Positions 252-32,803 of a stretch of 35,081 nt of DNA are shown piece after piece; the stretch's first letter is position 1; the number at the start of each line of letters is the position of its first letter. Position numbers and translations under genes: made by a program. The stretch spans positions 224,934 through 260,014 of the forward strand of contig NW_003153747.1 in the NCBI RefSeq assembly GCF_000003605.2, read 5' to 3'. Under the pieces are notes generated by a model. That model searched no databases. It was not told the origin of the DNA and worked only from the letters and a program-made list of their open reading frames with translations. The DNA comes from Saccoglossus kowalevskii (Eukaryota > Hemichordata > Enteropneusta > Harrimaniidae).

Positions 252-3200
252 ATGGCTGCATCAAGTTGTAGTAAAGGAACATGCATGTCACCTCAGAAGA
301 ATATGTTCAGTAACAGCCATGCTAAGGACATACTCACAACAATGAACAACTTGCGAAAAAACGGCACACTGTGTGACGTTGTACTTTCAGTTGAAAAGAC
401 TGAATTCCCTGCTCATAGGATTGTATTGGCCGCTTGTAGCGATTATTTCTGTGCAATGTTTACTAATGAGGTGAGAATTGCAAGTTATTTTTTGTTCAAG
501 AGATTACATTATATGAACAACTATCACATCACATCGGCATTTTTTGGACTTGCTCTTCATACCCTCTAAGTTGATATGACACGTCACTGTCACACACAGA
601 TTTGTTTGTGACTTAACAAAACAAGTATAAAAACAAAGGAAGTATTGTTCAACAACAGTTTTACTTTGTACCTTCAAAAACTCCTTGCATCCACATATAT
701 TCTTTGTTTTGAAGACCTCTTTCCCAAGTTTTCTACAACCTGACCAATTAAACTTCATTTTTGGAATTCCTTTGTGACTTAAGATTCGTACAAATTCACT
801 CCTGCTAGAGGACATTCTGTCATTGTCTGTAATCTTATGTCTTTGATTGTGAACAAATTTGTTTTTTATTTGTTCCATAATTTAATCATTGATATTTTCT
901 CACATCAGGCTTTCTGAAAATATATAGATTTCTATTGTTAGATGTATTGTAAATTATACAATGAATTTCATTTTTTTATGGAAATTTATAAAATATTTAT
1001 AAAACATTAACCCTCTAAGATCGTCGTGCTTCATTTGCTATATAAGTCATTTGGTAACATTTATTACCCATGAGTCTTTGCTGGTTTTCTTCAATCATTG
1101 GCATAGCCAAGTAGTTTTCAACCACCAATTGTCAATTTAAAAAAATTCATATATAATTTACATAAAAATAAATTCACTGTATTTGTTTAAAAACAAACTT
1201 TATTGAATGTAACTACTAGTACCGGTACCTTAAATTGTTTTTACATGTCATCATTACCAGGGCTTCATTGGTAAAGATTTCAACTCAAACTAAGTTACTC
1301 CTAATTATATATCAATTGTTTCTTCACTAGATGAGTGAAAGTCAAAAACAGTCAATAGAAATACAAGGTCTTACTGCCAATACTATGGAGGTACTGCTAG
1401 ATTTTGTTTACACTGAAACAGTCAATGTGACTGTTGAGAATGTTCAAGAGTTATTACCAGCTGCCTGTTTACTTCAATTGAAAGGTGAGTTACTGTGTTC
1501 ATATCAAACAAATAATTCATTGCTTGTTTTATTTCAATCATATTTTACTGGACATATTTGTGAAAATATACGCTAAAAAATGCTTAGTGCAAGGTTTAAT
1601 GGTTTATAATTTAACACATGCAATGTTATGCAATTAGAACTCAAGCTTGTTTTTGTCAAATCAAATCAAGTTGACAATTTTGTCAACTTGATTTGAAGGT
1701 GTGAACATTTTTGAAAGAAGTTAAATCTGAATTAAATGCCATTTTGAACCCTTTCTGAGAATCTAGACATTCATAATTAATGGTATGAATTGAGAGAACA
1801 CTCGTCTTAAATTCACAATAGAAGCCATTGAAATATTCAACATTACACCTAATATTGAAATGATTCATCTCCTGTTTTGAATAGTGATTTATTGTCCTGA
1901 GTTTGTTTTTCTGCAGACATGAATTGTGCGAGTCATTGCAAATTTTGTAGCAGATAAATACCACTGAGTCCAACAACTTTCGCTGGGGCCGAGTGAGTCA
2001 CAGCCACTTTTACTGGGGACCTAGGGAGTCAAAGCGACTTTCCCTGGAGTTCTAGGGAGCCATAGTGACTCTGAAGGAGCAACATCAACTTTAAAGCGGT
2101 AGGGTCCCAAGCGACGATAACAACACATGCTAAAAACACAAATGCTCATGAGTAGACACTTGTTTGTAAACAATGACCTGCTATGGCCATCTGACGCATG
2201 CGATGATGACGATTCCCCCGCTCTAACTAGGGTCCTAAGGACATAGTCACAGTAATTTTCGTTCTGGTCACAGTGACTTTCGCAAAATATTGTTCTCACA
2301 AACATTAAATCGTAGCGAAAATTCCTTTAACAAAATTAAACAGTTTACAGAATTTAGTATTTTACCATAGAAGTATGTTTTGCTATTCATGTTTTTAAAT
2401 ATTAGAGATAGGTACTCAACTTTTGGGTTTTGTTTGTGTGTTTTTTTTAGGCGTGAAGCGAGCATGCAGTGAATTTTTAGAAAACCAGCTAGACCCTACC
2501 AACTGCTTAGGAATCAAGAAATTTGCAGAGACGCATTCCTGTGCAGACTTGCTTCAAGCTGCTGAAAATTTCAGTTTTAAGTATTTCTCAGACGTGGTTC
2601 AGCAAGAGGAATTTATGGCAATTAGTAAAGAGGAAGTACAGGCACTGATAGAGAGTAATGACGTACAGGTTTGTGTTTATCTTCTACACTCAGAATGTAA
2701 ACTATGTTTTTGTAATCAAATCTTAAAACTAAAATTGCATCAAAATGTGTTTCCATGTTGTGTCTGAAAATGGTTGTACCGGTAATGTATATTTCATTTT
2801 TCATCCGACACAGTGCAATTCATACTCACCATGAGTAGCAATGACAAACAACTTATACTGGTTCTGTATGCATGTAGGCACTTGTGCATGTTAAAAATTC
2901 ATTTATTCACTATGTTAATTATGCCCATTATAAAAATTATCAATTTATCATGAAAAAGTAAGAGAAAAATTATCAGTTCTCCGATAGAAACATTTGATGG
3001 CTAAATTGCTGATGGCTAAATGCATTACTGGTGAGTTAAAACTCAGTGAATATGCAAAGTTAACAAACATCAGTCTTTCTGAAACCAGTAAATTTAAAAC
3101 CTAGTAAATGTCCCTGACACATCTAATATGTTATAATTAAATTATGGAGCTCTCATTATAGCTCCATGATTAAACCAAAATTGAATTAATCAAACATCAC

Positions 3201-6200
3201 AAGAACATTACTATAATATTTATATCAGGGGTTAGGCTGATGATCGATTGTTTCTGAATCTATTAATGCATCGTGTAACAAACTTAATACATCCCTTCCT
3301 GAAAGCATCTACATCGTCAGCAGGTGATGTAATAAAATGTGTCTTCTGTGACTATTTGTAACTAAACACAGAGTTCAGTGGTTGGCATTGTGTTAACAAA
3401 TTGGCTCTCTGTACACATTGAAAAGTATAGTGATGTGAGATTCTGTTATCAGCTTGTTACAGAAGAGCCAGTCTTTGCTGCAGTATTAAGTTGGGTTAAA
3501 CATGATGATGAGAAACGATCTCAATATTTGCCGGAACTACTTGGTTATGTAAGATTGCCATTGTTATCTCCAAAATATCTCACTGATGTTGTGGACATGG
3601 AGGTAAGTATTTATCAAACCTGTATAATTCATAGCTTCAAAATCAAAACTATACAGTACACGTATGGTATGGCAGGGTAAAAAACAACCTAAGTCAAGAC
3701 CTAACTATGTTTACATAGCTTTGCTAAAAGTTTCTAAAAAATGTTGTTATTTGTTTCTCATGATCAGTGAATTCTACAAATTTGTTGCTACATGATCAGT
3801 AGGATCATTATCAATGTCAGCCTTGTTTCATTTATACCATAGATGCTCTGTTAGAATCACATGTGTACCTGACTATCATGATGTCATTATATGGCAGTTG
3901 TACTGTTGATACAATTACATGTACTTTTGATTAAATAAACACAAACTCCATTGATAAAGTTTATTTGATCATTGATTAATTTTCATGAATTGCTCAACTT
4001 ATGGAAGAACATTTCAGTGACTTTACAACATTTGTCCTTCAATCATCAAATCACAAAAATATCTAGTAGTTATATTTAATGATGTTGTACTGTATTTTGA
4101 ATGTTTCACCTTGTAACGTATAAAAGCAATCTCACTAGTAGAAACTAAAGCTAACAATCACTAACTGAATCGTTGACTAATGACAACTAAAGCTGTCATA
4201 AACTATGGATTGGTGAGCAAATTTTATTGACTCTCATTGTCGTGTTCACTTGTTCTAAACCTAGTTGTATATTTCTACTTGAATCTCTTCAGCCACTGAT
4301 CAAAACCAGTCTGGAATGCAGAGATCTGGTTGATGAAGCTAAAAGGTTTCATCTGAGGCCTGAGTGCCGGGCTGAGATGAAAGGACCAAGAACAAAACAT
4401 AGAACAGGTATATGCCACAAATCTGTGATAAGAAGTTGTGAATGAATGAGACTGCAATGTAGACATGTTAGAAATTTGTATTACCCTGATCTGTGTGTAT
4501 TGTCTGCACACATTTAAATTTGTTTTTTGATTTAAAAAAATGTTTGAAGTTTAGGTCATAAAAGTATACACAGATGTAATGACAAATCTTGTTGTCTTTC
4601 ATTATAGGGTCAGATGAAAGATTAGTTGTAGTTGGTGGTTTTGGAACACAGCAATCTCCTGTAGCAAACGTAGAAGAGTTCAATCCTAAAAAACAGATGT
4701 GGAGATTCTTACCAGTGAGTTCTATTTATTTGGAGATCAATGATACTTTCCTCTGTTGATAAACAATGATGAAATTAAACTAATAATCATTTCTATTCAA
4801 GTCTAGCTGTAATCAGCTCCCATCAATATCTAGTCAAGTTGTTTTTCTATCAGCTTTTAGGTCACTGCAAAGCACCAAATTAAATAGAAGTAACTATGAA
4901 TATTACAGCAATGACTTTATGCCTTAATAACAAGAAATTAACTTGTGTATGTGTGGAGATTTCGTCCATAAAAAAACAAAATAGATGAACCAGAAATATC
5001 TGTACACAACCAGCAAACAAGGATTAACGACCTTGTCACCAGTCTTGTGGCCTTAAAGTTGGCAAACTTTCATTTGCTTCAAAGCATGTCAGGCACCAAT
5101 GGGAAAACACAAATCAGTCTTTGCACATATAATGTACGGCAGTTTTCATGTATGTCCATGTTACCAAATTTACAGCAAGCAAGTTAGGCACATGCTTTTT
5201 GTCTCCAAATTTTGTAAATTATTTATTAAACTATATTCTGTCACCAGAACTTAACTAAAAAGAGGAGATATGTAGCAGTGGCATCCCTTGGTGATAAATT
5301 GTATATTATTGGTGGTTTTGACGGTATGTCTAGATTAAACACAGTAGAGTATTTAGATTATACCATGGAAGACTTAGGGTGGTCTGCTATAGCACCTATG
5401 AATGTTAGAAGAGGACTTGCTGGTGTGGCTGTACTTGGAGGTAAGTCATTCAGAATTTAAAAACTTGTTCTAGCTTTACAGTTATCACACAGTGTGTTGA
5501 ATTTTGTACAGTGTATTTTACATGTGTTGTATATGTTGCATGGGACCCACAATAAATGTGACATGTGGTGCAACTACCCCGGTACTGTAAAAAAAAATAA
5601 AGTGCTTTGATTTACTGTTGACTAGCCACCGGATCATCGATAATCACAGTCAATAATGAACGTGCATCATATTTTTTCAACACACCATCCTGTATAGTTA
5701 ATGATAATAAGTTATTTCACAATGCAGAAATGATTTATGTGGCTGGTGGCTTTGATGGAATCATTCGACACCGTTCCCTGGAACGCTATGACCCCCACAT
5801 AGACCAGTGGAATGTTCTAGCTGAAATGGAAACTGGCAGAGAAGGAGCAGGATTGGTGCCTGCAAATGGAATGCTTTATTGCATTGGAGGGTATGATGGT
5901 GTCAATATTCTGAAGTCAGTGGAGAAGTTTGATCCGAATACAAACCAGTGGGTGTCTGCTGGATCAATGAGTACTAGAAGATCAGGTAAGGTAGAACAGT
6001 ATATTCTCTTGAGGTATACACTCGACTAATTGAACTTAAATTCCGTGAAAAAAACATGTATATATTAGTACCAGTGAGGTCACTGAGTAAGTTGCACACA
6101 AACATGGTAACACTGATGTACTACTGTCAACAAATGATCCAGTTTTAACACATCACCATCCACATACTATGCAATTCAATATCATTATATGTACATGATA

Positions 6201-7184
6201 TGAGAGGTGGTACCATAGGCATGCTGTACTTTCATTCACTTGAATATTTGTCATTGACATTAGCCATTGAACCTGCTTGTTTCATGCTAGCACATAGTAT
6301 GCTGCACACCACCATCGTTACCCTATTTCATATTCTGAATTCACTTCTGGGATGTCTCCCACCTTGTGACACTGTTCAATCAGATTTCACCTGTTTTATC
6401 ACTCCATGAGTTTATTGGGGAAGCTTTTACATTACAAACTGTAGAATTGGGGATGCATTGACTATTCTTGTTTTTTTTCTTCATTGCCGATAGGTGCAGG
6501 TGTTGCGTTGTTAAATGATATGATTTATGTGGTCGGTGGATATGATGGATCATCTCATTTGTCATCTGTGGAATGTTATAATCCAAGGACAGATACATGG
6601 ACACTTGTTACTAGTATGACAATACCAAGGTGTTATGTGGGTGCTACTGTCCTCAAGGGGAAACTATATGCTGTCGCTGGGTAAGACCCCGCCCCTCTGT
6701 GGCAATTTTATTGTATATCTACATGTATTAGTAGAACATGCATTTATATAAATGTAAGTGGCATATCTAAGGCCAGAAGAGGTCATATTTGAATGGTATA
6801 GCATGCAATTAATCGTTTATAAGCAACTCTATTGGAAATGTGCTTCTAACAGTCTAAGAGCAATTACGGTAGTACTCCCCTATACAGTAAAGAGTAGACA
6901 TCATTGGAGCGTTGCTTATAATTATTTGTTCTGAGCTTGAACTATATTGTGGTGTTTTTGCTTTTAGTTTGTATGTACTTGTAACAATATTGTAATTTAT
7001 TATATATGTTGTTTTATATGTAAATGCATATCTGTATTTTGTTTTTTTCCTGACTAGGTATGATGGCAACTCATTGTTGAACAGTGTAGAATGCTATGAT
7101 CCCATGTTGGATGTGTGGGAAGTAATGCCACCCATGACAGTGCAGAGATGTGATGCTGGAGTCACTGTGATGAGGAAAAAATAA
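252..7184 (+). CDS. KLHL12: Kelch-like protein 12 (BTB-BACK-Kelch CUL3 adaptor)
   Basis: Ten coding exons join in frame: 252-470, 1331-1484, 2451-2668, 3453-3602, 4293-4407, 4608-4714, 5248-5440, 5728-5985, 6494-6680 and 7058-7184 (TAA). The product is 575 aa; human KLHL12 is about 568 aa. Residues ~25-130 form the BTB domain ([18 protein letters not shown], then LLDFVYTE and [17 protein letters not shown]). Residues ~131-245 form BACK, with the [15 protein letters not shown] segment after it. Residues ~288-575 form six Kelch blades, seen as repeated GG[FY]DG/GYDG and Y-x(6)-W motifs. Similarity to human KLHL12 is close along the whole length, so orthology is well supported. In vertebrates KLHL12 brings substrates such as SEC31 and Dishevelled to CUL3-RBX1 ubiquitin ligase; that role is inferred here. 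A T-rich tract ending in CAG at 198 looks like a 3' splice site, so a 5' UTR intron probably lies upstream. AATAAA at 7925-7930 may be its polyadenylation signal. Confidence 0.97.
1661..1696. repeat. Perfect 17-bp inverted repeat with 2-nt loop in KLHL12 intron 2
   Basis: Positions 1661-1677 (starting TCAAATCAAGTTGAC) are exactly complementary to 1680-1696, with only TT between. On RNA this would form a very stable hairpin in the intron. No flanking direct repeat is visible, so it differs from the micro-hairpins listed elsewhere. Confidence 0.8.
1981..2073. repeat. Three imperfect copies of a ~31-bp tandem repeat, KLHL12 intron 2
   Basis: Three successive units of 30-31 bp each run roughly CTGGG-x-CCTAGGGAGTC followed by a CGACTTT-like end (units begin near 1981, 2011 and 2042). 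Fragments resembling the unit end (TCACAGTGACTTTCGC) recur at 2245-2283, so the original array may have been longer. It is locally more GC-rich than the rest of the intron. No coding potential is seen. Confidence 0.6.
3144..3168. mobile_element. Micro-hairpin element, ATGGAGCT family, copy B
   Basis: ATGGAGCT (3144-3151) and AGCTCCAT (3160-3167) enclose an 8-nt loop and are followed by one G. The flanks ATTAAATT (3136-3143) and ATTAAACC (3169-3176) match at 6 of 8 positions, as an aged target-site duplication would. The ends are identical to those of the hairpin at 26016-26047. It lies in KLHL12 intron 3. Confidence 0.5.
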
Positions 7185-9889: not shown

Positions 9890-9895
9890 TTTATT
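9890..9895 (-). promoter_or_regulatory. Polyadenylation signal AATAAA for the USP gene
   Basis: TTTATT on the plus strand reads AATAAA on the minus strand, about 27 nt after the USP stop codon. If used, the 3' UTR would be very short. Confidence 0.4.
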
Positions 9896-9921
9896 TTAAA
9901 ATAAAGGAATGCAACTTTCTT

Positions 9922-12666
9922 TTACTTCCTTTTGAAAAACAATAAATAAGCATTTTCCTTGATAACATCATTATTACACTCGTCCTCCATGTTGGATACC
10001 ATGGTTACGTAGTCATCATCAAATTTGTACCAATTGTCATCGAGAGCCTTGCTGTAAGCAACATAATGACCACAAGACGCACTCTGACCTCCGAGATGTA
10101 GACATAGGGAATATAAATAATACGCAGATCTGAGGTTAATAACTGGTTCTCGGTTTGTAACTGTGTCCAGTATCAGATTACTCAAGTCAAGTTCATTAAG
10201 TGGTATTGTAATTGGTGTGTGTTTTTTGTAGGTGCGGCATCGCAGTGAATCATATCGAAATCTCATTAGTTGGACTATCAGGCATTCAGGGAGCTGTCGC
10301 AGTAGTGATCTGCGCTGACCAGAAATAGGCGACTCGCTCGCATAGCTCTCCATTTTTTCATCTTCTGCAAGCTCCTTTGAATCCAGACTGGTTTTACCCA
10401 TTTGTTGTAATCTCTCAGATCTCCTAGGTGTTGATTTTTCGCGTGAACAACAGCAGTGAGAGCACACAAGACTGTCCCTACCAGAAAGCTCCTCCGTGCT
10501 GCTGAATGTAGCGATGCAATCTTTGAGCTTTACCTGGTCTCTGTATGCTACTTGTTCAGGCACTGCTACTGGTAGTACGGTGAAAGGCTCGGTACTCACT
10601 GATATATGACTACATTTGCAACAAAACCGTACATCCACAAACTGTCCAGTGAACATTTCATCAATTATGGAGTTATTCTGACGACAATACACCAACCATT
10701 CTAAATCTGATAGCATTGTTATGGCGTCAGCATAAGAGTCATTGTTAAGACCATTTGCGTTTTCTATTGTTTTTTGACACAGTTCTTTCAACTCTCTTAC
10801 TCTTTCATCACTCAAATCACCATAGACAAATTTCAACATGTTACCAGTATTTGTGGTGTCAGAGACAACATTTTGAAGTGTGTATTTATTATTTAAGATG
10901 GTTTGCAGTGCACTCAACAACCATGTTAAGAACTCTGAGGCATCTTGCTGAGATTGTGATCCAACGTCTGGATTGGCAATCAAACTGGGCATCATTCTGT
11001 TAGTGGCACTTCTGAAAGCAGTAGTGCTAATTGCTGCACTTGTGGTGGTTCCAGGCAAAACGTTCAAGACCTCAAGTAAATTACCAACAGCAGCTACCAA
11101 TGCAGACTCCAATTGGTTGGCAGATAGGGGTCTAACTTGGTTTGCAAAATGTGCAGCCAATAGAGGCGTATGTGCCAAACATTGTAAGACAGAGTTCATA
11201 AAGCACAAATTTTGTCCTCTGTTTTGGAGTCCGGGTGGAGTGTTAGCAGGTTTGAAATAGGAGAACCAATTAGTGAAAGATGGAGTATAACGATTGACCT
11301 GTTTATGCACACCAGTGACTTTTGTAGGAGGTGCTTCATCAGGAGGTGGGCTCTTCTGCGGGGATGTCCATGATTCACCAATTAGTATAGGACTTCTTTG
11401 CCGTGCAATTCCTGGTCGAGGAAGTAATGGACGTCTAACAATCTCTGAAGAGAGGTTTTTTTGCAGACTATCTTGGTAGTAGTTGACAGGCTTGCTACTG
11501 TAAACGTTTTTCTCAGCGTGAAACTGATTATATTGCCTCTGGTCCTTATGTAACATAGAACATCCAAATGTACAGATAATTAAAGCCCATAAAACAAATG
11601 GCTGGTGAATGTAAATTGTAATCAGCCCACTAATTAAAAGAAGGATGAGAGCTTCGTACAACCAGATTTGACGTCTCTGCAATGAAGTCCTGTGTTTGAA
11701 CAAACAAAATAAAAATTACACAACCATTTGCTACTCAAAATAGTTCTTTTTACGGTTACTCATGACCATTCAACAGAAGTTGCACTGATGAATACATGTA
11801 TAAAAATAATATGAGGTTATTATGAGGATACTGAAAAGTAAGTACGAAAACAGTACAGCAACCAACACGCAGCGGAGGTCGATGTGCCATGAACTGTCTG
11901 AGTGGTATCCTCATGATAACCTTATTATTATACATCTTTTCCTCCCAAGGATACATCATGGGATGCCGAAATCAAAAAAGTTGAGCAGAGGATGATTATG
12001 CGCGTAAACGTTCAATATTTGGAATTTGCATTTCCTAATATGGTAGAATGAAAATATCCAGTGCAATACAACAAAATTAAGGCACGCTGTAACTTATGGC
12101 GTTACGGTGACAGATGTATAATAATAATCTTCGTTGAACTCGTATCCCCATTGGGATTTTGAATAACATGGCAATAGAGAAAAAAATGACATAACACAAT
12201 AATAATGATGATGACTATTTAAAAAAAGTGTTATACATTTTTTGATATTTCATTTACCGTTACCCATTAATAGAATTCAAAGTCATTTGCTGTACTACGG
12301 TACGAATTTGCAGTCGTCCAACCTCGACAGTGTATGGGCACAATTCTGGAAGCTGTACCTACCACGTACTGTCTGTGGAGAAAGAGTCCCGTAACTACCA
12401 ACCCAAGCGCCAACATAAATAGAGGTTGTCATCTTTTTTTACCCCCATGTACACAATAAAGCTTTACTTGTAGTTGTACACCATTACCTTGTTCGGCTGA
12501 GAAAACTTTTCGCTATGCCATCGATGGTGATGAACAGAACAATCTCTGCGATGAAACGAAACGCAAATGTCAATGGGATCAGGTACTCCGTGATGACTAA
12601 CCACAACGATTCCTGTGATATGCTGGCCAGAATACGGGCCACAGCAGGCGACGCACTGTCATTCAT
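9922..12666 (-). CDS. Membrane-anchored USP-family ubiquitin carboxyl-terminal hydrolase (peptidase C19)
   Basis: Two coding exons on the minus strand, 12666-12488 and 11689-9922, join within an Arg codon (AG|G) to give 648 aa. The long exon has no ATG near its own 5' end, so the upstream exon is needed. Hydrophobic stretches at ~21-48, ~68-86 and ~91-105 predict an N-terminal membrane anchor, followed by a Pro/Ser-rich linker. The catalytic domain starts at ~212. It has a Cys box GLQNRGQNLCFMNS (Cys222), the QQDASEFL motif, two CxxC pairs (FCCKC and VCSHC) as in a zinc ribbon, and a His box with GHY (His601) and WYKFDDD (Asp617). All three catalytic residues are present, so it should be active. 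The Cys box has one residue more than the usual NxGxTC. I cannot name a vertebrate orthologue: the anchor recalls USP30, while GQN-x-CF recalls USP53/54. Removal of ubiquitin from membrane-associated substrates is inferred. Confidence 0.93.
11796..11937. repeat. Imperfect inverted-repeat element in the USP intron
   Basis: The left arm around 11796-11831 (ending GGTTATTATGAGGATAC) is complementary, with a few mismatches, to 11905-11937 (beginning GTATCCTCATGATAACC). The arms are about 30 bp and the spacer about 70 bp, so it looks like a small MITE remnant. No clear target duplication was found. Confidence 0.5.
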
Positions 12667-13076: not shown

Positions 13077-16000
13077 ATGTTGAATCCATTTACGCGTTTA
13101 AGGTAAGAATGTACATATATAAAGTAGTTGCATGTAATTTTACCTCCCGGTTAAACCTGTGTTTTTAAAATTGTATTAAACTTGTTTGACTAAACTGATT
13201 GTATCACAGTCCCTCTATCTAGAGGGACTGTGATTGTATGTAAAAACGTCATTTAGTTAAATAGACATGGTTGAGTTGTCAGTTGACTGGCGGAAGAAAC
13301 ATTTTATTGTCTGGCACAACAAGGTCAAGTGGGGCATATGCTTAATTAATTAGACATGTCTTATTGTAGCTCTATATTTGAATTAAACTTACCTGGTAAT
13401 GATTGTTATGCACAAATGAAAATACTTTCCAATCCTATACTTTCCCCAACTTTAATCCTAACTAACTTTAATTGTTTATGTCTGTCTTGAAGACACATCT
13501 AGTTATGGGGTGGAGAGTTAGCATCATAGTCAGGGGAAGAGCTGTGGTGTACATTGGAAAGTCTCTGCGAAAATGTTGAAAACAGATGCACCCATATGCA
13601 GAACGTTTCTAATGTATACAAGCAAATATTTACCAGCTAAAAATTACCTTGAGTTTCCCCAGCCAAAAGAATGGTAGATTGGTTGTTCAGGCAACCTTCC
13701 AAATGCAGTCAACATTTTGTCTGCTATTTGTCATTCTATTCACTTCACATGCGTCAGTGCATTTGACCTTATGTTATACTCTGGCCACACGTGGTCAAAC
13801 CGACATAAGTCAATATTCTTTCATGTTTACAGAGGGAAACCAGTCAAACTACGTGAATGATGTTTTTATAGAACCATGTCTTGGATGTTACTAGCTACCA
13901 ACATCTGTAATATACTAATTCAGTACCATATACTGGTGTCAGGAGCAGTGCAGGTGAGATTTATATAATTTGTTATTATGAGTCCCCAATATGAATTCAG
14001 AGACTGAAGGTAGTAATCCAATGCGAGTAAAAATTCATGACCTCATGAATATTCATGAAGTATTCCTCATCATGCATGAACAGTTCACTAAAGGTCAAAG
14101 TGACTTTCATGAAATAATTTGGTTCCATACATTAAATGATGTACATGAGTATTTGATGTAAAATACATTCATAATTGATATAACTCATTAAGATATCTTT
14201 TTCTGTTTTGTTTTTCTAACCATTCCTTGTTTTCCGTTTTTATTTTTATTTTATTATGTTTTCATTTTGTCTTCATTTATATTTTGTCTTGCCATTTTTG
14301 TATGTATCTGAAACTTTATTGTATTTTAAAAATCCAGATCCTGAACAGGATATGATTTCAATAAAGGCATTATTATAATTCATAAACTTATATTGTTCAT
14401 TCATAAATTGTTTGGAATGCATGAAAGTTTTATGAATATTTCATGGAATAAAATACTGTAAAACATGTCTTTTTAACTAACATATTATTTTAGCTAATTT
14501 AGCTAATCTGTAATTTTGCTAATTCAAAATGCAGCTAATTTAACAGTAAGTATATTCTCACAGGGGGGGTAGTCGACACTTTAGATAAATTAAAATTCTG
14601 TTAATTCATGCCAAGAGTCAAATTTGCTGAAATCGCATGCAGCTATTTCAACATGTTGTGTTCTACAGTAGTTTAGTCTCAATAAAAAAGATAATAACAC
14701 ATTCAGCTTCTCTGGTATGACAGTTTTATGTTAGAACACCCAAAATGTGAAAAACAGTCAAAAATTCTTGAATTGTGACCAAACAGAGGTCACTCTGTTG
14801 CATTTTACAAAACACAGTGAATTATGAGAGGTGAGACCATTCCACAACAACAAAGACATCTTTAGTATGCTACTTTTATATCTTTATTTCATGAAGTAGT
14901 ATCAAACTTATTGAATGGTTGAGCTTTAAATCTAACTACACTTTTACAGATTGAACTCAAGTTAATCCAACTCAAGTAAACTCCAAACTGTGCAAGTTAT
15001 CTGAATGCAGCATAATCTAGATGTGTTGTCGCATTTTTATAGCTAACAACATATGTATGGCTTCTCTTTGGCTCAGTGAGTCACGCAAAAAACATGATTT
15101 ACCCACAGCCATGTGAAAATTGAGATTGTACATTATAATGGTAGTTCTCTCAATGTGATGTGATGTGGTTCTCTGTGATTCCCAGTGCTTAATATGCCAG
15201 CCAGTGTTGCAGTAGAATTACATGTCATATAGATTGTTATATTTTCTCTTGTATTTTGTGTGTTACCAGGGATATGATGTTGACACTGTGTGCAGTGATA
15301 ATCAAGCACTTGTACAGCTTCCTGGAGGACAACAACTTTGCCTCAATACTGGTAAATTTGCATCACTAATTTGGATTATCAATATTTGTTGTGAACGAGT
15401 ATGACATCAAATTACTTTTGTTAGTGTGATATCATAAATATAATTTTCACAGTGATGAAATAAATGTGTCAAATATATGACTTGAGAAATCCTGAAAAAA
15501 TTATTTTCACAAATAAAATATCACAAGTAGGGACTCTCCAATCACATCTCAATTTTTATGTACGTGCATATGTATCACACTACAGTCCATCTTTTGAATG
15601 TTGTATACTGTATGTACTAATAAACATGTTCAAACTGCTGAACCCTATGCAATAATAATTCTGGTTTTGCAACATTCCAGATAATTTGCCTATACTACTA
15701 ATTTGCTCACTTAATTTGCTTATAGTGTCACATTTTCAACCTGAAATGTTAGTAAAGATAAACAATTTAAGCCAAGAAACAGATTTATATACCGTAAAAC
15801 ATGTCTTTTTAGCTAGCACGTTATTTTAGCCAATTTAGCTAATTTTGCTAAATTAAGATGTCGCTAATTAGAATATATTCTCACAATGAGATTGTTGACA
15901 CTTTAGCTAAATTAAGATTCAGTTAATTCATACATGGAGGCGAATTCGATAAAATGGCATGTAGCTATTTCAAAGTGTTTTACAGTATTTCCATTCACTC

Positions 16001-17357
16001 ACTAACTTGTTCACTGGTAAATGTTCCTGCAATTATTTAAATTTCTGTTCTTATCAATTATCTTAAGAACTGAATGGATTTGTACCATATGGTGATATTG
16101 ATTGTGGAAGTGAAGTGCTGAGTATCAGGAGTTTTCACATTGAAAGAGAGGCATACGTAGCTATAGCAGATAGAGACAATGGTAAGTCATCATACCCTAC
16201 AAATAGTAACTCCGTTGGTAGGCTTACCCAATAAGTGATCAGCTCCTACCCTGGCATGTGGGACACTCAATGTCTCATTCCCAGTCCTCTAACAAGGACT
16301 TTGGATAAGCCTTGGGCAAGGTGTTTTTTTTTTACATGATTTAAACACACAAGGTTTATTCTGCATTTGTTCCATTTTAGATGCAGTACTGATCTACAAA
16401 TGGCATGACCAGACATTTATATATCATCAAACGATAGACGTACCTGCTGTGCTTAGTTTGGAGATTTTCAGAATACATAATGACACGTACCTTGGCACCG
16501 CGGCATACCGTACTGGATCAATTGACACCTTGTATCAAATTGTTCAGATTGTTGGTCTTCAAATACTTACGCAACCAGTCATTTACAAGTGGAAAGAAAA
16601 TGAGAGTACATTCATAGAATTTCAGCGACTCAATGTTTTGGAAGCAAAGACCTTAAAATTTGTGGAATTTTCCCAAAGCAGGGATATTACAAAGTATTTT
16701 CTCATTGCGACTAATGGTTCGTATGCCAATACAACTCTATATGAATGGGACAGTGATGGATTTGGGGTTGTTCATCATCTGCATGCAAAATCCAAGCATG
16801 TAGCATTTATTCAAGAAAACTATCAGTTCTGGATGATACTAACAAGTGATCGTGGCACCACAGTCTGGAAATGGACCGGACAGCATTTCTATGTCCTGAA
16901 ATCAGCCTCAATCAATTTAAAAGCACCAGACTCTGTTAGTCTGGATACTGCTAATTTTCACCACATCACGTTCATATGCATGGTTGATAAAAGACGACAA
17001 TTACCGGTGTACATCACAAAATGGCACAGTGAGCAAGAACAATTCATCCTAGTCGAAAACCTTAAACACCACCATGCAACAACATGTCAGTTTGTCAACT
17101 ACGCTGGCCAACTTTACTTACTCACTGGTAGCCGCCTTGGGGCAAATATTTACAAATATGACCAAGTCTTCAATAATTTCCACCTGATAGACGAGTTAGA
17201 TGGCATTAGCCACGTCACTGCCACAGAACATGTAAATATTAATGGTGTTCTTTATTTACTTTTAAAAGTAAAGTCCAGACAGTACACCAATGATGGAAGA
17301 GTTTCAGATGTCTGTCGATATTACCAGGGCCAGTTAGTTTTTTTAAATGCTGGATGA
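13077..17357 (+). CDS. Secreted or membrane EAR (EPTP)-repeat beta-propeller protein
   Basis: Proposed coding exons are 13077-13102, 13663-13852, 15270-15351, 16068-16181 and 16381-17357 (TGA), 462 aa; phases agree at every join. The last three are solid. The donor at 13853 (GTGAAT) and the first exon are less certain. An alternative start at 13703 gives a cleaner signal peptide (MQSTFCLLFVILF). The body from about residue 105 contains seven repeats of ~45-50 aa with a V-x-Y-x-W / F-x(4)-L pattern, for example AYVAIADRDNDAVLIYKW and YFLIATNGS-x-LYEW. Seven EAR repeats make the seven-bladed propeller known from LGI proteins and TSPEAR. No leucine-rich repeats precede it, so it is not an LGI protein, and there is no room for the large N-terminal domain of TSPEAR. 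An extracellular, adhesion-type binding role is inferred. It is head-to-head with the USP gene. Confidence 0.85.
13205..13231. mobile_element. Micro-hairpin element, ACAGTCCCT family, copy 1
   Basis: One C is followed by perfect 12-bp arms ACAGTCCCTCTA (13206-13217) and TAGAGGGACTGT (13220-13231), loop TC. It is flanked by identical 8-bp repeats GATTGTAT (13197-13204 and 13232-13239). This looks like an insertion of a bare hairpin with an 8-bp target duplication, in the first intron of the EAR gene. Confidence 0.65.
14200..14375 (+). mobile_element. Possible 3' tail of a non-LTR retrotransposon
   Basis: A T-rich stretch leads into CCTGAACAGGATATGATTTC, then AATAAAGGCATTATTAT. An AATAAAGG(ATT)-type terminus after a short hairpin (CCTGAACAGG) is typical of CR1/L2-like 3' ends. 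No reverse transcriptase sequence is nearby, so this would be a 5'-truncated copy in an EAR-gene intron. It could also be chance or an internal polyadenylation site. Confidence 0.3.
14454..14670. mobile_element. TA-flanked MITE-like element, CTGTAAAAC family, copy 1
   Basis: Starts TA-CTGTAAAACATGTC and ends TTCTACAG-TA, so the termini are complementary with one or two changes. The interior has repeated TTAGCTAATTT motifs. Left and right halves share these motifs and the TTGACACTTTAG-type segment with the copy at 15790-15987. TA on both sides is the duplication expected for Tc1/mariner-type transposition. Non-coding. Confidence 0.6.
15790..15987. mobile_element. TA-flanked MITE-like element, CTGTAAAAC family, copy 2
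   Basis: Starts TA-CCGTAAAACATGTC and ends GTGTTTTACAG-TA. It runs parallel to copy 1 through most of its length (CTTTTTAGCTA, ATATATTCTCACA, GACACTTTAG, GCATGTAGCTATTTC-like segments). It lies in the intron before the fourth EAR-gene exon. Confidence 0.65.
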
Positions 17358-17487: not shown

Positions 17488-18368
17488 NNNNNNNNNNNNN
17501 NNNNNNNNNNNNNNNNNNNNNNNNNNNNNNNNNNNNNNNNNNNNNNNNNNNNNNNNNNNNNNNNNNNNNNNNNNNNNNNNNNNNNNNNNNNNNNNNNNNN
17601 NNNNNNNNNNNNNNNNNNNNNNNNNNNNNNNNNNNNNNNNNNNNNNNNNNNNNNNNNNNNNNNNNNNNNNNNNNNNNNNNNNNNNNNNNNNNNNNNNNNN
17701 NNNNNNNNNNNNNNNNNNNNNNNNNNNNNNNNNNNNNNNNNNNNNNNNNNNNNNNNNNNNNNNNNNNNNNNNNNNNNNNNNNNNNNNNNNNNNNNNNNNN
17801 NNNNNNNNNNNNNNNNNNNNNNNNNNNNNNNNNNNNNNNNNNNNNNNNNNNNNNNNNNNNNNNNNNNNNNNNNNNNNNNNNNNNNNNNNNNNNNNNNNNN
17901 NNNNNNNNNNNNNNNNNNNNNNNNNNNNNNNNNNNNNNNNNNNNNNNNNNNNNNNNNNNNNNNNNNNNNNNNNNNNNNNNNNNNNNNNNNNNNNNNNNNN
18001 NNNNNNNNNNNNNNNNNNNNNNNNNNNNNNNNNNNNNNNNNNNNNNNNNNNNNNNNNNNNNNNNNNNNNNNNNNNNNNNNNNNNNNNNNNNNNNNNNNNN
18101 NNNNNNNNNNNNNNNNNNNNNNNNNNNNNNNNNNNNNNNNNNNNNNNNNNNNNNNNNNNNNNNNNNNNNNNNNNNNNNNNNNNNNNNNNNNNNNNNNNNN
18201 NNNNNNNNNNNNNNNNNNNNNNNNNNNNNNNNNNNNNNNNNNNNNNNNNNNNNNNNNNNNNNNNNNNNNNNNNNNNNNNNNNNNNNNNNNNNNNNNNNNN
18301 NNNNNNNNNNNNNNNNNNNNNNNNNNNNNNNNNNNNNNNNNNNNNNNNNNNNNNNNNNNNNNNNNNNN
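17488..18368. other. Assembly gap (881 N)
   Basis: A run of N. The true length may differ. The 3' end of the EAR transcript and the last exon of NICN1, if there is one, could lie inside. Similar short words (CTGCATC before, ATGCATC after) sit at the edges, which can happen when a repeat caused the break. Confidence 0.99.
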
Positions 18369-22900: not shown

Positions 22901-25086
22901 CATTCTATTGTGTCAATGGGAAAATAAGCTTCACACAAATGAAACTTGCCCAGTTTACAGATAGGACTGGTTGTGAATGCAAGAAATATTCACACCATTA
23001 TGTCTTTTGAACCAAATTAAAACAAAATCAATGAAAGTGTATCAGCATGAAAAACTGGTATGACACATGAATATTGAATCAAATCATAGAAACAAGGTTT
23101 GAAAGCAAGCACCATGGCGACAATTCAAACAAAGCATCTGGTAATGACAATACATGTACATGTACATATCTATGAACATTACAAAGTGAAGGCATACCTG
23201 CTTTCTAGAAATTGTAAAATAATCTTGACTTCCTGGTTCACAATGCGGATCTGGCATCAGGGGATATCTTCTCAATACTGTTTTCCATTTAGTATCTCCT
23301 GCAATGGTGCATGTTTCTATTATTTGGGAGTACATAATAAAACACAACACATATTTTCAGACATCGCTTTATCATAGGTGCAACAAAGTCACCTAGGAAT
23401 ATAACATGTACCTTATCTGCTCTATTAATAGCACTGGAAAGGAAGGATAGATAGCGTAACACACTTTTGACATAGTACATTAATTTTGTTTGCAATTTTC
23501 AAAAATTTGTTCAATGCAACTGGGACCTCCAAACTAGTTTTTAAATTATTAACTTTAGTTGAATTAATATCAACCAACCATAAATTCTAAATGTTCATCA
23601 GAGTAATCACAAACTCATTATTTCTAATGAAAAAAACTCAGGTACCTACTGTAGTTTTTAATTTGCATTTTGTTATTGCAGAATAGTACCCTCAAGTGTT
23701 TATAGTTTGTTGTAAACCCTTCTCAGAGAACAACATAACTCATTGTTTTTTTCACTACAAATGTAGAACTACCACCCTAATCTCACCATGGACAACTCAA
23801 ACACTTGTATTACAAAACATCTTAATCTATACTTACTGCCCGAAACTTCAGAACTCTTGAAACTGCATCTGACTTTGATTGATAAATAAGCAGTGTAATT
23901 ATTCTTGAAAGTGACTTCTCCAAGCTGCAATGATAGAATTACCAGAATGTTATGTCTGTTATTTTGTAAACAATACAGCCTCTCATATACTGTAATATAA
24001 AATGTTTTTTGGCAGTCTCATAACATTCAAGCAGGAGATTCAAAGTTACCAGTGCCTAAAACACATTATGATTATGGCTGCATTGTAAACCATTGAATTT
24101 TCATAAGTTTTTGTGACATTTTCATTTTTCATGAAAGAACCCTAGCATCAGTAACTTCACACACAATTTACCTGACTCACTATCAAAGAAATGGTCATCT
24201 ACCTGTAAGGCCGTCACTGATTGGCGCATGCGTCGGATGACAATTTACGATTCAAAGACCCCAGGGAAGTGTTCTAGTTTCTTTGTATTTGTATGCAAGG
24301 AATTTTTCCACACAAAAACAACAATTTTGGCCGAATTTTGTTAGCGGTTGACTTAATGTTGGCCAATCGTTTGTCCGTGAAAGTTTGCTATTTTTTTTAT
24401 TTGTAGAAATCATTTTTTTAATCTGAAAAACCTGTTTCTCAACTTTGTTCTTTATTTAGTTTTAAGCAGTATTCAAGATAGCAGCCCCATACAGTAAATT
24501 AATCACATTCATTTTATTATCACTTATACACCAGCTGACCCATGCATGAATGCACAGTGACACTAGACTCATAACATTCAAGCCCAAATATATAATTATT
24601 TGACCTTTAATGAGAATTATCTATTATTAAAACACATGCAATGAGTGATGTCTTCAATATTCAATATATAGAGTCGGTCATAATAAAATGTGCTTTAACC
24701 AAATATTGGTTGTTGGATCATTGGTTTGTCGGACAGATGAACCCTCCCCAATTTCTGCATGGTCCACCCCTCTTTTCCACAGAACACAGCACAATCTGAA
24801 CCAATTTGTTTCTCCCCATGAGTGATCCCGCGTGAGTACAGTTGGTGATCAGTGGGTGAAAAAATGCATGCCGAGAAAGTATATTTCTAAGCCCCAACGA
24901 TGTTTACATTTACATTGGCACATGAACATGTACTATAATTGTAATAACAGTACTCACGTCAACAGATTTTATGTTGGGCATTGCAATTTCAATGACTGCA
25001 GCACCGGAACTGAATTCCGTCCTTGGATCACCGATTTTTAGCACCACGGGTTTTTTAACGATGCAGTTGAGTGGTTTTGATGCCAT
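19954..25086 (-). CDS. NICN1: Nicolin-1 (tubulin polyglutamylase complex subunit)
   Basis: Six exons on the minus strand join in frame: 25086-24958, 23924-23837, 23298-23198, 22323-22210, 21839-21729 and 20058-19954, 216 aa together; human nicolin-1 is 213 aa. Diagnostic matches are ITFKNYYTAFLSIRV (here VTFKNNYTAYLSIKV), LMPDPHSEEGAQEY (LMPDPHCEPGSQDY), LILRQPSPLW (FILQQPSPVW) and QQMWALTE (QQLWALTE). Nicolin has been found with the TTLL1/TPGS1/TPGS2/LRRC49 tubulin polyglutamylase complex, which adds glutamate chains to axonemal and neuronal microtubules. Exon 6 ends GRYD at a strong GTGAGT donor. Reading through it meets TAG at 19938-19936 after five codons, so the protein either stops there or has a short last exon, perhaps in the gap. 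Exon 5 encodes an acidic Asp/Glu/Asn run. It is head-to-head with PIERCE1. Confidence 0.94.
20223..20435. mobile_element. TA-flanked MITE-like element, CTGTAAAAC family, copy 3
   Basis: Starts TA-CTGTAAAACATGTTG and ends ATGTTTTACAG-TA. The termini are complementary and match the two copies in the EAR gene, but the interior differs (GCGATTT and GAATTAGCGAAT motifs in place of GCTAATTT). Probably a related subfamily. It is in NICN1 intron 5. Confidence 0.6.
20502..21581. mobile_element. 1.08-kb non-autonomous DNA transposon with ~20-bp TIRs
   Basis: The left end TACCGTAAAAACTCCAAAAT and the right end (rc TACCGTAAAAACTCCAAAAT) are identical over 20 bp. The match continues loosely inward (ACGACCGG against TCGGACGG). 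TA at both outer edges is consistent with a Tc1/mariner-type TA duplication. Internal segments near 20577-20615 and 21074-21114 (TTAAGGTG...TTTTTCAGA) are related to each other. No transposase frame is visible. It is in NICN1 intron 5, next to a smaller element with similar tips, so the same trans-acting transposase may serve both. Confidence 0.75.
22488..22890. repeat. Two diverged copies of a ~288-bp dispersed-type repeat, NICN1 intron
   Basis: CGCTATTTTGAAT...ACCCACCATGTGTAATGT...AAAGTTTGAATGAA (from 22489) and CGATTATTTTGAAT...ACCCATCATGTGTGACGT...CAAGTTTGAGAAAA (from 22775) keep the same order of motifs. A weaker third echo is seen near 23060-23120. Likely fragments of an old interspersed repeat. 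Non-coding. Confidence 0.45.
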
Positions 25087-25623
25087 CTTTCATTTGACAG
25101 ATTCAAACACTATAAACTAAACTATAAAAACTGAACGATGTTTTCTGTTTTGATTGAAAGAAAACATCAAGACAATATTGCCGCCATGATGGTTCTCGTT
25201 TTTTCTCGCGAGTGTTTGTTGTGCGAGTGAACGAGATTTTATACACTAAGACTATACCATTATTATATAGGGTAATATGGATTTTAATAAACTATATATT
25301 CAAATATATGCAATATTTCAAAGCACTCCGATTTATTTATTTATCAATCAACTATTCATAAATAAAACAATATACCTAATTCTTCAAGACGTACGAATGC
25401 AAAGCTGCTTCAAACTGACGTTCTTGATATATGAAACAACTGACCCCTTCGAACTACTTAGGTTGACGTCACCCAACGTGTTTATCTTTTGGTCAACATA
25501 GCAACGACGCATATAAATCGCCCGATAAACATTGAATTCGCCATATTTATTTGTTGAGCCGTTCTAACGTGAGCTGTCTATACTGTCTAGATTTCTAAAT
25601 TTTTCATTTTAGTAACATTCAAC
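25087..25623. promoter_or_regulatory. Divergent promoter of NICN1 (-) and PIERCE1 (+) with X-box
   Basis: 537 bp lie between the start codons. Near NICN1 is TCTCGCGAG (25204-25212). Towards PIERCE1 are TGACGTCA (25464-25471, a perfect CRE), TGTTTATC (from 25479, forkhead-like), GTCAACATAGCAAC (25492-25505) and GATAAACA (from 25523, forkhead-like). The 14-mer has two inverted half-sites spaced by AT. The right half fits the RFX X-box exactly (RGNAAC) and the left at five of six positions. RFX and FOXJ1 are the usual ciliary-gene regulators; their use here is inferred. Confidence 0.6.
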
Positions 25624-28176
25624 ATGGCTGGTGCCGAAAATAAGCTGACTTTGCCACACGAGGTAAGACAAAGTTGATGTTTTTTTTAAACGCTGAAAAG
25701 GGACAACAAATGTAATACATTCGACATTATCCATTTACTTCATTTTGCACGCAACGAAACACGAAAAGTGACGTTGTTTGTCCAACCCGACGCTCTTGTA
25801 AAAGCAACGATTGTATTTCAGGTAGACACCCGGTCTAATACAGCCATTACAGCAAATTACGTAAAACTCGTGATTTGTCTTTGCATAGTACATTTGGAAT
25901 GTTGCGAAACATTGCTTTTTTTCACCGAAATGGCGTTATTTTTGTGTTAAACTTTCATTGATGAGGCCACAGTCCCTCTACAGGGACTGTGATTAGGCAG
26001 GTTATGACACTGATCATGGAGCTAAAATATAATATTTTAGCTCCATGCACTGATCAAGATGTCTGTGAACATAAACTTGATATGTAGTTTAGGAAGGTTT
26101 CGGCATTGTCAGTACCTCATTATGAAAATAAAAAGTGTTTGTCTAAAACCTTTATTAACCAAAAAAAAAAGTCACATTATCTTTACGGTACTAATATAAT
26201 AATATAGAATTTTATTCTATTTTTTTCTATATTGAAATAGAAGGTAGTAATTGCTGGTCTGTTCATTTGTTGTTGATTATTTATAGCTACATGTATTTTG
26301 AAAAAAAAATAGACATTTTCGCTCAAATGTTGATAGGTTTGTAGAAATCTAGCCTATCAAATCAAATTTTGTATATAAAACATCAAGTACTGTACTGTCT
26401 GAAATGACAGGCAGACAGGTGGCTGGCTAAATGCCTGACGTGATGTCTCTGGTACATGAAATTGACAATATGGAGAAAATATTTGACTTTTATGAAAGAA
26501 AATATGACATTCACATTGGGATATAACAATTCTTCTTCATGACCTACCATGAGCATCTTTTATGTATTGTATATCACGAATTGTGTTGCATTTATTTATT
26601 TCCCCTCAAATGAACCCCAGATATATAAATTTATATAAATTATTATGTCTTCATGGACACACATGTATAAAGTCATTTGTGTCATTTAATATTAAAATAT
26701 GGAAGTTTCTTGCAAATACTAGATAATTAGTATTTCCATAGTTTCATGACTAAAAATTATGCTGTGCAGGAGCAGGATTCTGCATACTTAACTGTCCAGA
26801 ACTACTGAATTATTTCTCTAGCTAAAAAAAATGATACAACTCTTGATAATTTTTGTTATCTTTTTGCACAGGTAATAGATGATTCACAGTACCCACAAGA
26901 ACGTACAGGAGAACAAGCTTGTGATACCAATGCAGCTTCATTAACAGGTGCAAAAACGTCTGACCTCTACAGGACACATGATATTCCTGACCGTTTTGAC
27001 AATCCTGGTATGATTTGTGATTTTCTTTAAATGAAGTCTGGTCGTCAACCCAAACTGAACGCACATGTCTTCAGTCAGTACATATATTTTTTGGCTTCCA
27101 TGCTTATCTTAAAGATAGCTCACATAAATTACATAATTGACTGAGTACTGGTATGTTTACATAATAAGTACATGTAGTTCAGTTTGGGTTGTAGACTGGC
27201 AAGTTCATTTCTATCACTAATTAATTTCTCTTTATTATTTAGAAAACATGCCTCCATGTGCTAGTCCAGGTAATCCAATATTTTCCTGTATGGAAAGGCC
27301 AACAATAGAAGCACCACAACAAAGTGATGAAGGTGTGTACTGTTGAGATGCTAGCTGTCCAAACCCTCCAAAAATAACACATGATTTTGACCATTTTTTG
27401 CAGCATATATTCCATGTATTTGGTGAACTTTTTTTGTGTGTTAATTGTAAATTGCTTTATATACATATTTGAGTTGAGAAGTGTCTAAATGCATTGTAGC
27501 ACATCTAGAATTCAGCAATATTACATTGATCACACTACACATTTTTATAATTCCGAAAATGGAGCACAGAGATCTGAACAGTATGACTGGTGGGTGGAAA
27601 AAATATTGTTTGTTCACAAAGTATAACTTGAAACACTCCCACAGTGGGTACACTCTCAGCGCTAGAGTATCATCTCTCCTATAAATAATGGTATGCTATT
27701 TGACATTATGGCACTAGTGATAACTCTTATACCCTTACATTATTTTTGTGTCTGTGACAGATCTATTTTCTAATAAAGTTTTTTTTTGTTCCACGTACAG
27801 GTTGGTTTGAAGGTTATGGCACAAAATCACAACACCCAATGTACAGAACAACAAACTCCAAATATGGCTCCATGCCTCCAAGTGTCCACACAATGCCAAC
27901 AAGTTTTCATGCTAGGTCACAGAAGTTCTCAGAAGTGAGTGTCTTTTCAACAATATATACATGCATGTATATAGTAAAAAACATGGTATCGGTATCGGAC
28001 TAGACTAAAAGTGGCTATAATGCTACTGGTGTATCAGATCTATTGAGTATCTGTTAGCATTGTACATTGCATATTTGTGACATTTCTCTTTTATTTTTTT
28101 ATTGCAGCCTTTAGGAAAATGTGGAATGTATCGCAATAAAGGACTCAACACAGGAATGGACCAGAGTAAAGTTTAG
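25624..28176 (+). CDS. PIERCE1: PIERCE1-like ciliary microtubule inner protein
   Basis: Five exons join in frame: 25624-25662, 26872-27007, 27243-27332, 27801-27934 and 28108-28176 (TAG), 155 aa. The conserved core reads TSDLYRTHDIPDRFDNP, GWFEGYGTK, MYRTTNSKYGSMPPSVHTMP, SQKFSE and GMYRNKGLNT. This follows mammalian PIERCE1 (C9orf116) motif by motif (YYRVSADLPGRFNNPGWFRGY, YRTSNQAYGSRAPTVHEMP, GMFRNNTLN). PIERCE1 and PIERCE2 are microtubule inner proteins of axonemal doublets, needed for docking outer dynein arms and for left-right patterning. The paralogue split is uncertain. Exon 3 (90 nt, phase 1 at both ends) adds 30 residues between DNP and GWF, which are adjacent in mammals, so it may be a cassette exon. 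Any tail after the GMYRN motif is much shorter than in mammals. AATAAA at 28349-28354 is a likely polyadenylation signal. Confidence 0.92.
25968..25990. mobile_element. Micro-hairpin element, ACAGTCCCT family, copy 2
   Basis: One C is followed by ACAGTCCCT (25969-25977), loop CTAC, and AGGGACTGT (25982-25990). The flanks GATGAGGC (25960-25967) and GATTAGGC (25991-25998) match at 7 of 8 positions. Same structure and sequence family as 13205-13231. It lies in PIERCE1 intron 1, 17 bp before another micro-hairpin. Confidence 0.6.
26016..26047. mobile_element. Micro-hairpin element, ATGGAGCT family, copy A
   Basis: Arms 26016-26030 (ATGGAGCTAAAATAT) and 26032-26046 are perfectly complementary with a 1-nt loop, followed by one G. 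On the minus strand this reads C plus hairpin, as in the other family. The flanks CACTGATC (26008-26015 and 26048-26055) are identical 8-bp repeats. Confidence 0.65.
27046..27191. mobile_element. 146-bp MITE-like element in PIERCE1 intron 2
   Basis: The terminal 15 bp CAACCCAAACTGAAC (27046-27060) and GTTCAGTTTGGGTTG (27177-27191) are perfectly inverted. The match continues inward with gaps (CACATGT against TACATGTA). No clear target duplication is seen. Non-coding. It sits just upstream of the cassette-type exon 3. Confidence 0.6.
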
Positions 28177-28402
28177 CAGCTGCCACTAAAACAAACACTT
28201 ACATTTAAATTTTTCTCACTCTTAGTTAGATTCTAAATATGTCAAATTATAGGTTTCCAAAATGAGAAATCTTCTAAATATGCTCTATTTGTGTACAGTA
28301 TGGTATAATTAGTAATTGAAACATAACATGAAAAACAACTGTAACTAAAATAAAATACATTTGTAGATTTACACTTTTGTTTAAGTTGTCCTATCCATAT
28401 AC

Positions 28403-28607
28403 TACTGTAAATTACTTTATTTTCGCTTGGAATTAATTATTGCTTTTGCTGAAGGATCGATTCAGTGTAAATAACGTCCAGTGTATATACCTTTTTTTAT
28501 TTTACATTCAACTCATCAATTATCAGTGAAAATAAATTACATACAAAACACCCAAAAAGCTTTTTCAGCGAAAATTAATTCCAGGTAAAATAAAATATTT
28601 TACAGTA
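28403..28607. mobile_element. 205-bp TA-flanked MITE-like element
   Basis: The left end TACTGTAAATTACTTTATTT and the inverted right end TACTGTAAAATATTTTATTT are similar. The similarity continues through GGAATTAATT on both sides, giving TIRs of about 38 bp with a few differences. TA lies at both edges. The tips resemble the CTGTAAAAC elements in the EAR and NICN1 introns, but the interior is unrelated. Confidence 0.65.
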
Positions 28608-29450
28608 GATGATCTGTGATGTGATATACAGTAGCTATATGGTGTACCAATATGGTTAGATGAAGCAATGAAAGATGCTAGATTATATACTAGTATAGTT
28701 TGCTAAACTATTCCACATTTAGACAGTACCAAAATTACATGTAAACAAAAAATATATTTTACATTAGGAGACCCACATACAACACAATGTGGGGTGGAGC
28801 TGTGATAGTGCTTTAGTATTGCATGTTATTTGTGCATAATCCACATCACATTTAACACATCTACAGTAAATAAAAGGCTCACAGTTTCCCTGTAAGTACC
28901 ACAATGTCCACTCATACCATGGAAAGTAATAGGACCTCTGTGCTAAAGTTAATCAGAGAGCTTATATATTTCCATGTTTCGAGGCAGATCAATGAAAAAA
29001 CTAAAAATTTGCTAATTATTATGCAATTTACATTGCACAAACTACAACCAGGAAACAATTAGGTGTGTAGATTTATTATTACAGATCACCTATATACCAA
29101 GTTTCAATCAAATCTAAGCAGTTTTGAGATATCTGTTAACGGTTAAAATAAGCTTTATATACTGAGGCAATTAATAAGCCCAAAACTTAATCAGGTCTGT
29201 GGATTATCAGTTTAATTCTTGCCTGAAATATCTAACTGCTGTTAAAATTAGGTAATTAACATGCACAAATTTTCACCCCAAACTTACCAAGTCCATCTGA
29301 AATTACACTGAAATCTAATATTTGTAAAAACTTGTTTTTGAAATTTATTGGTGTGAAGACATGTACACTTTACTGGCACACATACAGACAGGGTAATAAA
29401 AAGATTTGCATTGTGTGCTTTGCATACTGTAGGCAAAAATTTACACCCAA

Positions 29451-29482
29451 TACAATCCCTCTATCTATGATAGAGGGACTGT
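29451..29482. mobile_element. Micro-hairpin element, ACAGTCCCT family, copy 3 (decayed)
   Basis: ACAATCCCTCTATC (29452-29465) pairs with GATAGAGGGACTGT (29469-29482), with one G-to-A change in the left arm and loop TAT. The leading base is T rather than C. The flanks ACACCCAA and TTACCCAC agree at only 5 of 8 positions, so the duplication is eroded or absent. Confidence 0.45.
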
Positions 29483-29907
29483 TTACCCACGTAATAACAT
29501 GGAAAACAAATAGAGTACACAAAAGGCAACTTAAACCAGTTCAAGTTGCCGTTGATGGCGTACTTTATAGAACCCCAATAGCCAAAGACATGCTGCCAAC
29601 GCTTGGTACTACTGATTGAAGAATGTCAAAGTATCGCATGTGCAGCATTCTTCATTGCCAAACCAAAACACAGCTTCTCCCATTTGATTATGGTCATTGT
29701 ATAACCATGGTGATATCGCAAGTGTGTAATTTTTCTATAATCAGTTTGTAATTTTTAAAAGTGCAGTGCACGAAAGCACAAAGCAAATAATGATTTGTAT
29801 TGATGGTTCATTGAAATGACAACATAACTAACTTAGTATGCACACATACTATATTGCATACTCAGTATTTATCGCATACAAGCTGTACATTATAGACTTA
29901 CACACTA

Positions 29908-32780: not shown

Positions 32781-32803
32781 TGCGAAACAGGTCGTGCTTG
32801 ACC

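Follow-up and report, generated by a model that had tools for sequence, protein, structure and literature searches.

The Drosophila P transposase, as described in passages of PMC7776569, cuts one strand at the 3' end of its element and the other 17 bp within the 31 bp terminal repeat, and the excision junctions collected in Table 1 of PMC2895639 consist of the target duplication, up to 17 nt of one element end, a microhomology or an insert, up to 17 nt of the other end and the duplication again, some junctions having larger losses from the ends. In the passages on P-like elements of two papers (PMC10983969, PMC7776569) the 17 nt cut is described for the Drosophila enzyme only. We have analysed a stretch of 35,081 nt from the hemichordate Saccoglossus kowalevskii (assembly GCF_000003605.2, contig NW_003153747.1, positions 224,934 to 260,014 of the forward strand; hereafter the window), which contains five short hairpins, each lying between direct repeats. 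An original prediction made from the letters alone had taken these for hairpins inserted as such, in two unrelated sequence families, each with an asymmetric extra C and 8 bp flanking duplications, possibly related to a hAT element and representing an undescribed system. We consider it very probable that the hairpins are instead healed excision sites, or footprints, of DNA transposons of the P superfamily, a process already documented, with its 17 nt remnants, for the P element of Drosophila (parts of PMC7776569 and PMC2895639).

The Drosophila junctions derived from P{wa} resemble the scars described here in their layout, in a tip starting with CA, in templated insertions and in the recurrence of particular junctions (PMC2895639, Tables 1–3). 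They differ in their 8 bp duplication, in having been induced in the laboratory in repair mutants and in that some of them delete more of the ends (PMC2895639, in part), whereas the scars in S. kowalevskii have a 7 bp duplication, are natural and inherited, number in the hundreds and belong to several families. Galileo, a member of the P superfamily in Drosophila, is described in passages of PMC2775673 and PMC4168063 as having 7 bp duplications of the form GTANTAC, close to the preference found here and sharing with it the pattern G-T-N-N-N-A-C, but it differs in its long foldback-like repeats; the word 'footprint' is absent from PMC4168063. The zebrafish, with THAP9 and Pdre2, is likewise an animal besides Drosophila that has P-type elements and a P-type transposase, yet its duplications are of 8 bp and its terminal repeats of 13 bp according to parts of PMC10983969 and PMC7776569. 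Among the best matches of searches in the open-access literature we recognized no prior report of natural P-type footprints, which does not show that none exist.

Our working hypothesis is that insertion of an element whose terminal inverted repeats are long (31 bp in family A, defined below) would duplicate 7 bp of target, a duplication that is seen on intact elements. A P-type transposase would then cut one strand at the element edge and the other ~17 nt inside the terminal repeat, so that the donor site would retain no more than ~17 nt from either end; the two non-complementary tails would be trimmed and joined through small microhomologies, by blunt joins or with filler partly copied from the tails. 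As the tails that are joined come from opposite halves of one inverted repeat, the outcome would be a near-perfect palindrome. The ~17 nt stagger is proposed because the scars of family A stop at nt 17, and it is a known property of the Drosophila P enzyme. The junction types are observed; that end joining, probably including polymerase theta, closed the breaks would account for them, and excision by enzymes of this kind is the presumed origin of the scars in all families.

Probable scars in the window and across the genome

All five hairpins were confirmed at their positions in the window, three of them with the tip CACAGTCCC of family A and two with CATGGAGCT, the tip of family B. Each is a symmetric C...G palindrome built from two transposon ends, with the 7 bp duplication outside. 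The first, a family B scar of 26 bp at 3143..3168, retains 9 and 10 nt of the two ends, its outer C having decayed to T, and lies between ATTAAAT (3136..3142) and ATTAAAC (3169..3175), which match at 6/7 positions. A family A scar of 28 bp at 13205..13232, composed of 15 nt and 13 nt from the two ends, is flanked by ATTGTAT at 13198..13204 and 13233..13239 (7/7). The family A scar of 24 bp at 25968..25991 (13 nt, 10 nt and one filler base) stands between ATGAGGC (25961..25967) and ATTAGGC (25992..25998), a match of 6/7, and close to it a family B scar of 33 bp at 26015..26047, with 13 nt of each end and a 7 nt filler, is enclosed by CACTGAT at 26008..26014 and 26048..26054 (7/7). The last copy, a decayed family A scar of 33 bp at 29451..29483 in which both outer bases are mutated, is, apart from three substitutions, the commonest family A junction, and its flanks CACCCAA (29444..29450) and TACCCAC (29484..29490) have decayed to 5/7. 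The asymmetric 'C + hairpin' form of the original prediction is not supported; it arose because in three copies the base beside the duplication equals the terminal base of the element and because terminal bases are mutated in two (3143 and 29451).

Nine hairpins with perfect arms of at least 8 nt and at least three G/C are present in the window (shuffled sequence: mean 3.8, at most 11). Four of the nine have direct-repeat flanks matching at 6/8 or better, a class that averages 0.18 and never exceeds 2 in 200 dinucleotide shuffles. Hairpins alone are thus within the shuffle range and flanked hairpins beyond it, so that it is the flanks that carry the signal.

The two tips recur across the assembly searched (572 Mb, 4830 contigs). 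The family A pattern CACAGTCCCTCTA..GGGACTGT had 253 forward and 248 reverse matches and the family B pattern ATGGAGCT..AGCTCCATG 134 forward and 125 reverse, with none for the reversed-pattern control of either; the places listed are mostly single palindromes matched on both strands. An exact 7 bp duplication lies directly outside the scar in 31/45 family A and 26/39 family B rows, or 57 of 84, these rows being drawn from 60 pattern-search loci (with many places represented once per strand), 40 further regions and the window, without the decayed copy at 29451. Partly duplicated scars make L051 (cut short) and L084 (counted as two rows) doubtful members of this set, and a terminal base is changed or missing in eight rows (L001, L014, L023, L030, L041, L052, L069, L101). 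The palindromes read are 18 to 47 bp long.

The duplication is 7 bp and not 8 bp long. In a scan of 224,312 non-redundant bases, selected around known copies, exact duplications outside terminal palindromes of at least 7 bp numbered 28 at 5 bp, 3 at 6 bp, 63 at 7 bp (mostly A or B, owing to this selection), none at 8 bp, 5 at 9 bp and none at 10 bp; 27 of the 28 cases at 5 bp lack A or B tips, and a Markov control gave a mean of 0.1 over 20 runs, at 7 bp only. The 7 bp class also revealed further scar tips, namely CATGGAACTATAAACCC, CACGGTTAC, CAAAGACACTAGAAAAA, CATAGACCCTC, CATGGACGT, CATGGATGTACTAA and a variant of CACAGTCACTCT. The tips found begin with CA, the exception being L028, which has a 7 bp duplication only when read from CCA. 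Of the prediction that two unrelated families share one mechanism, the single mechanism is supported and the two recurring tip families stand; they are not wholly unrelated, because their tips share this start. The target preference, from 55 exact duplications with intact tips, is near-palindromic and of the GTYNRAC type.

Five scars outside the bait sequences in 181,760 bases (seven, less L062:86 and L079:1009, which lie in deliberately chosen regions) would correspond to ~16,000 in 572 Mb, a rough and biased figure as all of this DNA is near other scars. At two places, L032:1453-1534 and L010:1451-1527, two scars of different families stand side by side with a shared or abutting target site, as though new insertions were drawn to old sites.

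Arm limits, junctions and full-length elements

Measured against the canonical 31 nt repeat, with C or T accepted at nt 17, the longest arm of the 65 listed family A scars is 13 nt in 4, 14 in 12, 15 in 19, 16 in 4 and 17 in 26, and in none does it reach 18; the search pattern left room for elements of ~42 bp, in which any longer single arm would have been apparent. A further check of nt 18, with strand duplicates included and only C at nt 17 considered, gave 0 of 52 family A scars. In family B, 17 of 53 listed places reach the 17-mer tip. The printed strings behind these arm counts and the junction counts were completed, by assumption, with a terminal G in family A and a terminal C in family B. 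The interiors are mostly distinct (47 of 65 in family A, 41 of 53 in family B), and the junctions comprise 36 with filler, 18 blunt and 11 with microhomology in family A, and 32, 9 and 12, respectively, in family B. Some fillers, at L084, L051 and L101, repeat the arm itself. The pair L041 and L058 was considered as two excision products at one site, and this was dropped, both being copies of a 90%-identical 1.5 kb repeat that carries the scar; the scar was probably spread with the repeat, and the difference between the two may be a later mutation.

Longer elements with the same tips, which the original prediction had anticipated, do exist, as full-length relatives of family A. At L102 (4574-5189) an element of 616 bp with family A ends has an exact GATACAT duplication, its two ends agreeing over 16 nt and diverging beyond. 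A DNA search with this element recovered L105 to L108: L106, with family A ends, measures 1329 bp and has a terminal repeat of 31/31 and the exact duplication ATTAGCC; L107 spans 1646 bp, including an assembly gap, with a terminal repeat of 30/31 and the exact duplication ATTTAGC; L108 is a relative of 191 bp with an exact GCAAAAC duplication; and in L105, also a relative of family A, the duplication matches at 6/7. The first 25 nt of the family A end, with at most one mismatch, occur at 103 genome places (control 0), and among the 100 ends listed there are 12 inward-facing pairs 1.1-1.74 kb apart. A separate scan for long elements with 12 bp arms, covering L001-L101 and the window, returned two candidates (608 and 8551 bp), both of which lack A and B tips.

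The L102 element itself contains a scar of another family, CATAGACCTTAGAAAGAGATTTCTAAGGTCTATG, between two copies of ATTGTAC. At the same place L105, L106 and L107 have a single ATTGTAC and lack the 34 bp scar. The existence of this empty site implies that the scar is added sequence that arrived with its 7 bp target duplication.

Transposases and the weighing of alternatives

The P-type RNase H model PF21787 has 13 matches in the genome. An open reading frame (ORF) at L104 matches it with an E value of 3.3e-27 and had no PDB match; for an ORF at L103 the best PDB match is P transposase (E 0.0048), and the same protein is the best match of one L104 piece (E 0.43), another piece having none. A relative of L104 found by DNA search at C785 has lost the transposase stretch and keeps the segments on both sides; both of its edges carry the 31 nt end CATAGACCCTCAACAAAGGGATAGGAAACAA (31/31 and 30/31), and it has the exact duplication ATCAAAT. 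A P-type transposase gene is thereby supported for the L104/C785 element, whose tip is CATAGACCCTC, and the first 11 bp of its end head a third scar family with 144 pattern places. Neither L103 nor L104 holds an A or B tip. On C1737 a family B tip faces a PF21787 match 2.0 kb away, an arrangement with a rough chance probability of ~0.007-0.015 (11 transposase loci), and family B 17-mers form inward pairs, known from their positions only, ~1 kb apart on C1341, C2397 and C2501 and 162 bp apart on C3943. Overall, of the 7 or 8 bp duplication typical of the P superfamily, the exact 7 bp form is present at L102, L106, L107, L108 and C785 and its terminal inverted repeats at L106, L107 and C785; for family A only, the arm limit is indirect evidence, read from sequence, that would fit a staggered cleavage at 17 nt.

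A side observation concerns the same element. L104:1-323 and C2039:389602-389920 are copies of a high-copy repeat of ~320 bp, 96-98% identical and with at least 35 further copies, which occurs twice in direct orientation, ~0.9 kb apart, inside the P-type element, like the ends of a small element of the long terminal repeat type.

Among the other explanations, the one we take most seriously, while considering it improbable, is that the short palindromes are themselves mobile, as minimal miniature inverted-repeat transposable elements (MITEs) that insert with a 7 bp duplication. The exact duplications around 57 of 84 copies are what such elements would produce, and one family A interior occurs in 5 of 65 scars, three of these five having been read with their flanks and each having a different duplication. 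However, a mobile short element does not account for interiors that are mostly unique in both families, for the full-length elements with the same tips, or for family A scars that lack nt 18-31 of the 31 bp repeat and all internal sequence. P transposase needs internal sequence as a binding site. The predicted hAT origin, whether as hAT-derived elements or as hAT excision footprints with 8 bp duplications, seemed at first sight to fit terminal repeats that are short and direct repeats that look ~8 bp long, but with no exact 8 bp duplication against 63 at 7 bp we regard it as the least credible of the alternatives; the model matched by the linked transposases is the P-type PF21787 (no search aimed at hAT families was made), and together with the terminal repeats these transposases point to the P superfamily. 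The footprint of a hAT element consists of altered flanking bases, not of ~17 nt retained from each end. Palindromes arisen by chance, or MITEs that random breakage has deleted internally, might be expected in an AT-rich genome in which short palindromes are common; this is nevertheless very unlikely, as the reversed-pattern controls are 0 against 134 and 253, the Markov control is 0.1 against 63, and the arms of family A are limited to 17.

A number of observations weigh against P-type excision as the origin of the scars. The base after the family B 17-mer is A in 12 of the 18 arms that reach it, and as the full-length family B end was not read, the scars of this family may run to 18, so that the 17 nt limit is shown in family A only. 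Some junctions recur, and the family A product seen five times among 65 would also fit the movement of short copies, although recurrence is found among Drosophila excision junctions as well, two of them 14 times each (PMC2895639, in part). As to the enzyme, PF21787 matched none of 14 control genomes and so lacks a positive control, and a second model, PF12017, had no match in this genome or in any control genome. The PF21787 match on C1737 has an internal stop, the C1737 and L104 elements were each read at one end (the left end of L104 was not reached), and none of the 100 listed family A ends (of 103) lies within 100 kb of a PF21787 match, the closest being ~144 kb away on C662, and none of the transposases could be tied to family A. 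A Pfam scan of three ORFs listed no THAP domain, with no search aimed at THAP having been made, and three short L104 pieces, examined for the GTP-binding insertion and the C-terminal RNase H part, gave no Pfam match. Of the 144 places of the third scar family only L019 was read with a duplication (exact GTTCATC), and only one of the 29 whose letters were shown continues as the L104 end, which suggests that the others belong to sister subfamilies.

The mechanism of P-type excision is known; the natural archive described here is unusually rich. The 17 nt stagger is known from one well-studied enzyme, and natural scars show its hallmark in another genome without biochemistry. It is tempting to go further and to propose, as a suggestion that has slightly less than an even chance of proving right, that the staggered cut is an ancient feature of the P superfamily, legible family by family from genomic sequence alone, that end-joined excision has often been the fate of P-type elements in this genome, and that it left some ten thousand inherited scars, a natural record of germline end joining perhaps more numerous than the elements that survive. 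The scars are a large catalogue of repairs of germline double-strand breaks with known starting ends, from which one can measure, in a non-model species, how microhomology is used, how filler is copied and how excisions divide between those with and those without gap repair; on this reading, the genome preserves a legible account of element cutting and break repair. The scars may also account for a class of short palindromes between direct repeats that might otherwise be catalogued as tiny MITEs.

Other features of the window

Pfam matches in ORFs of the window are to BTB, BACK and Kelch domains, a ubiquitin carboxyl-terminal hydrolase, an EPTP domain and a sulfotransferase, and the ORFs concerned are at 252-569, 3378-3680 and 5730-6029 (+), 9922-11703 (-), 16449-17357 (+) and 32780-33946 (+). 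The BTB, BACK and Kelch ORFs are probably exons of one gene, and the family B scar at 3143 sits between the BTB and BACK pieces. A short tandem repeat with a unit of ~31 bp in roughly three copies occupies positions 1965-2070.

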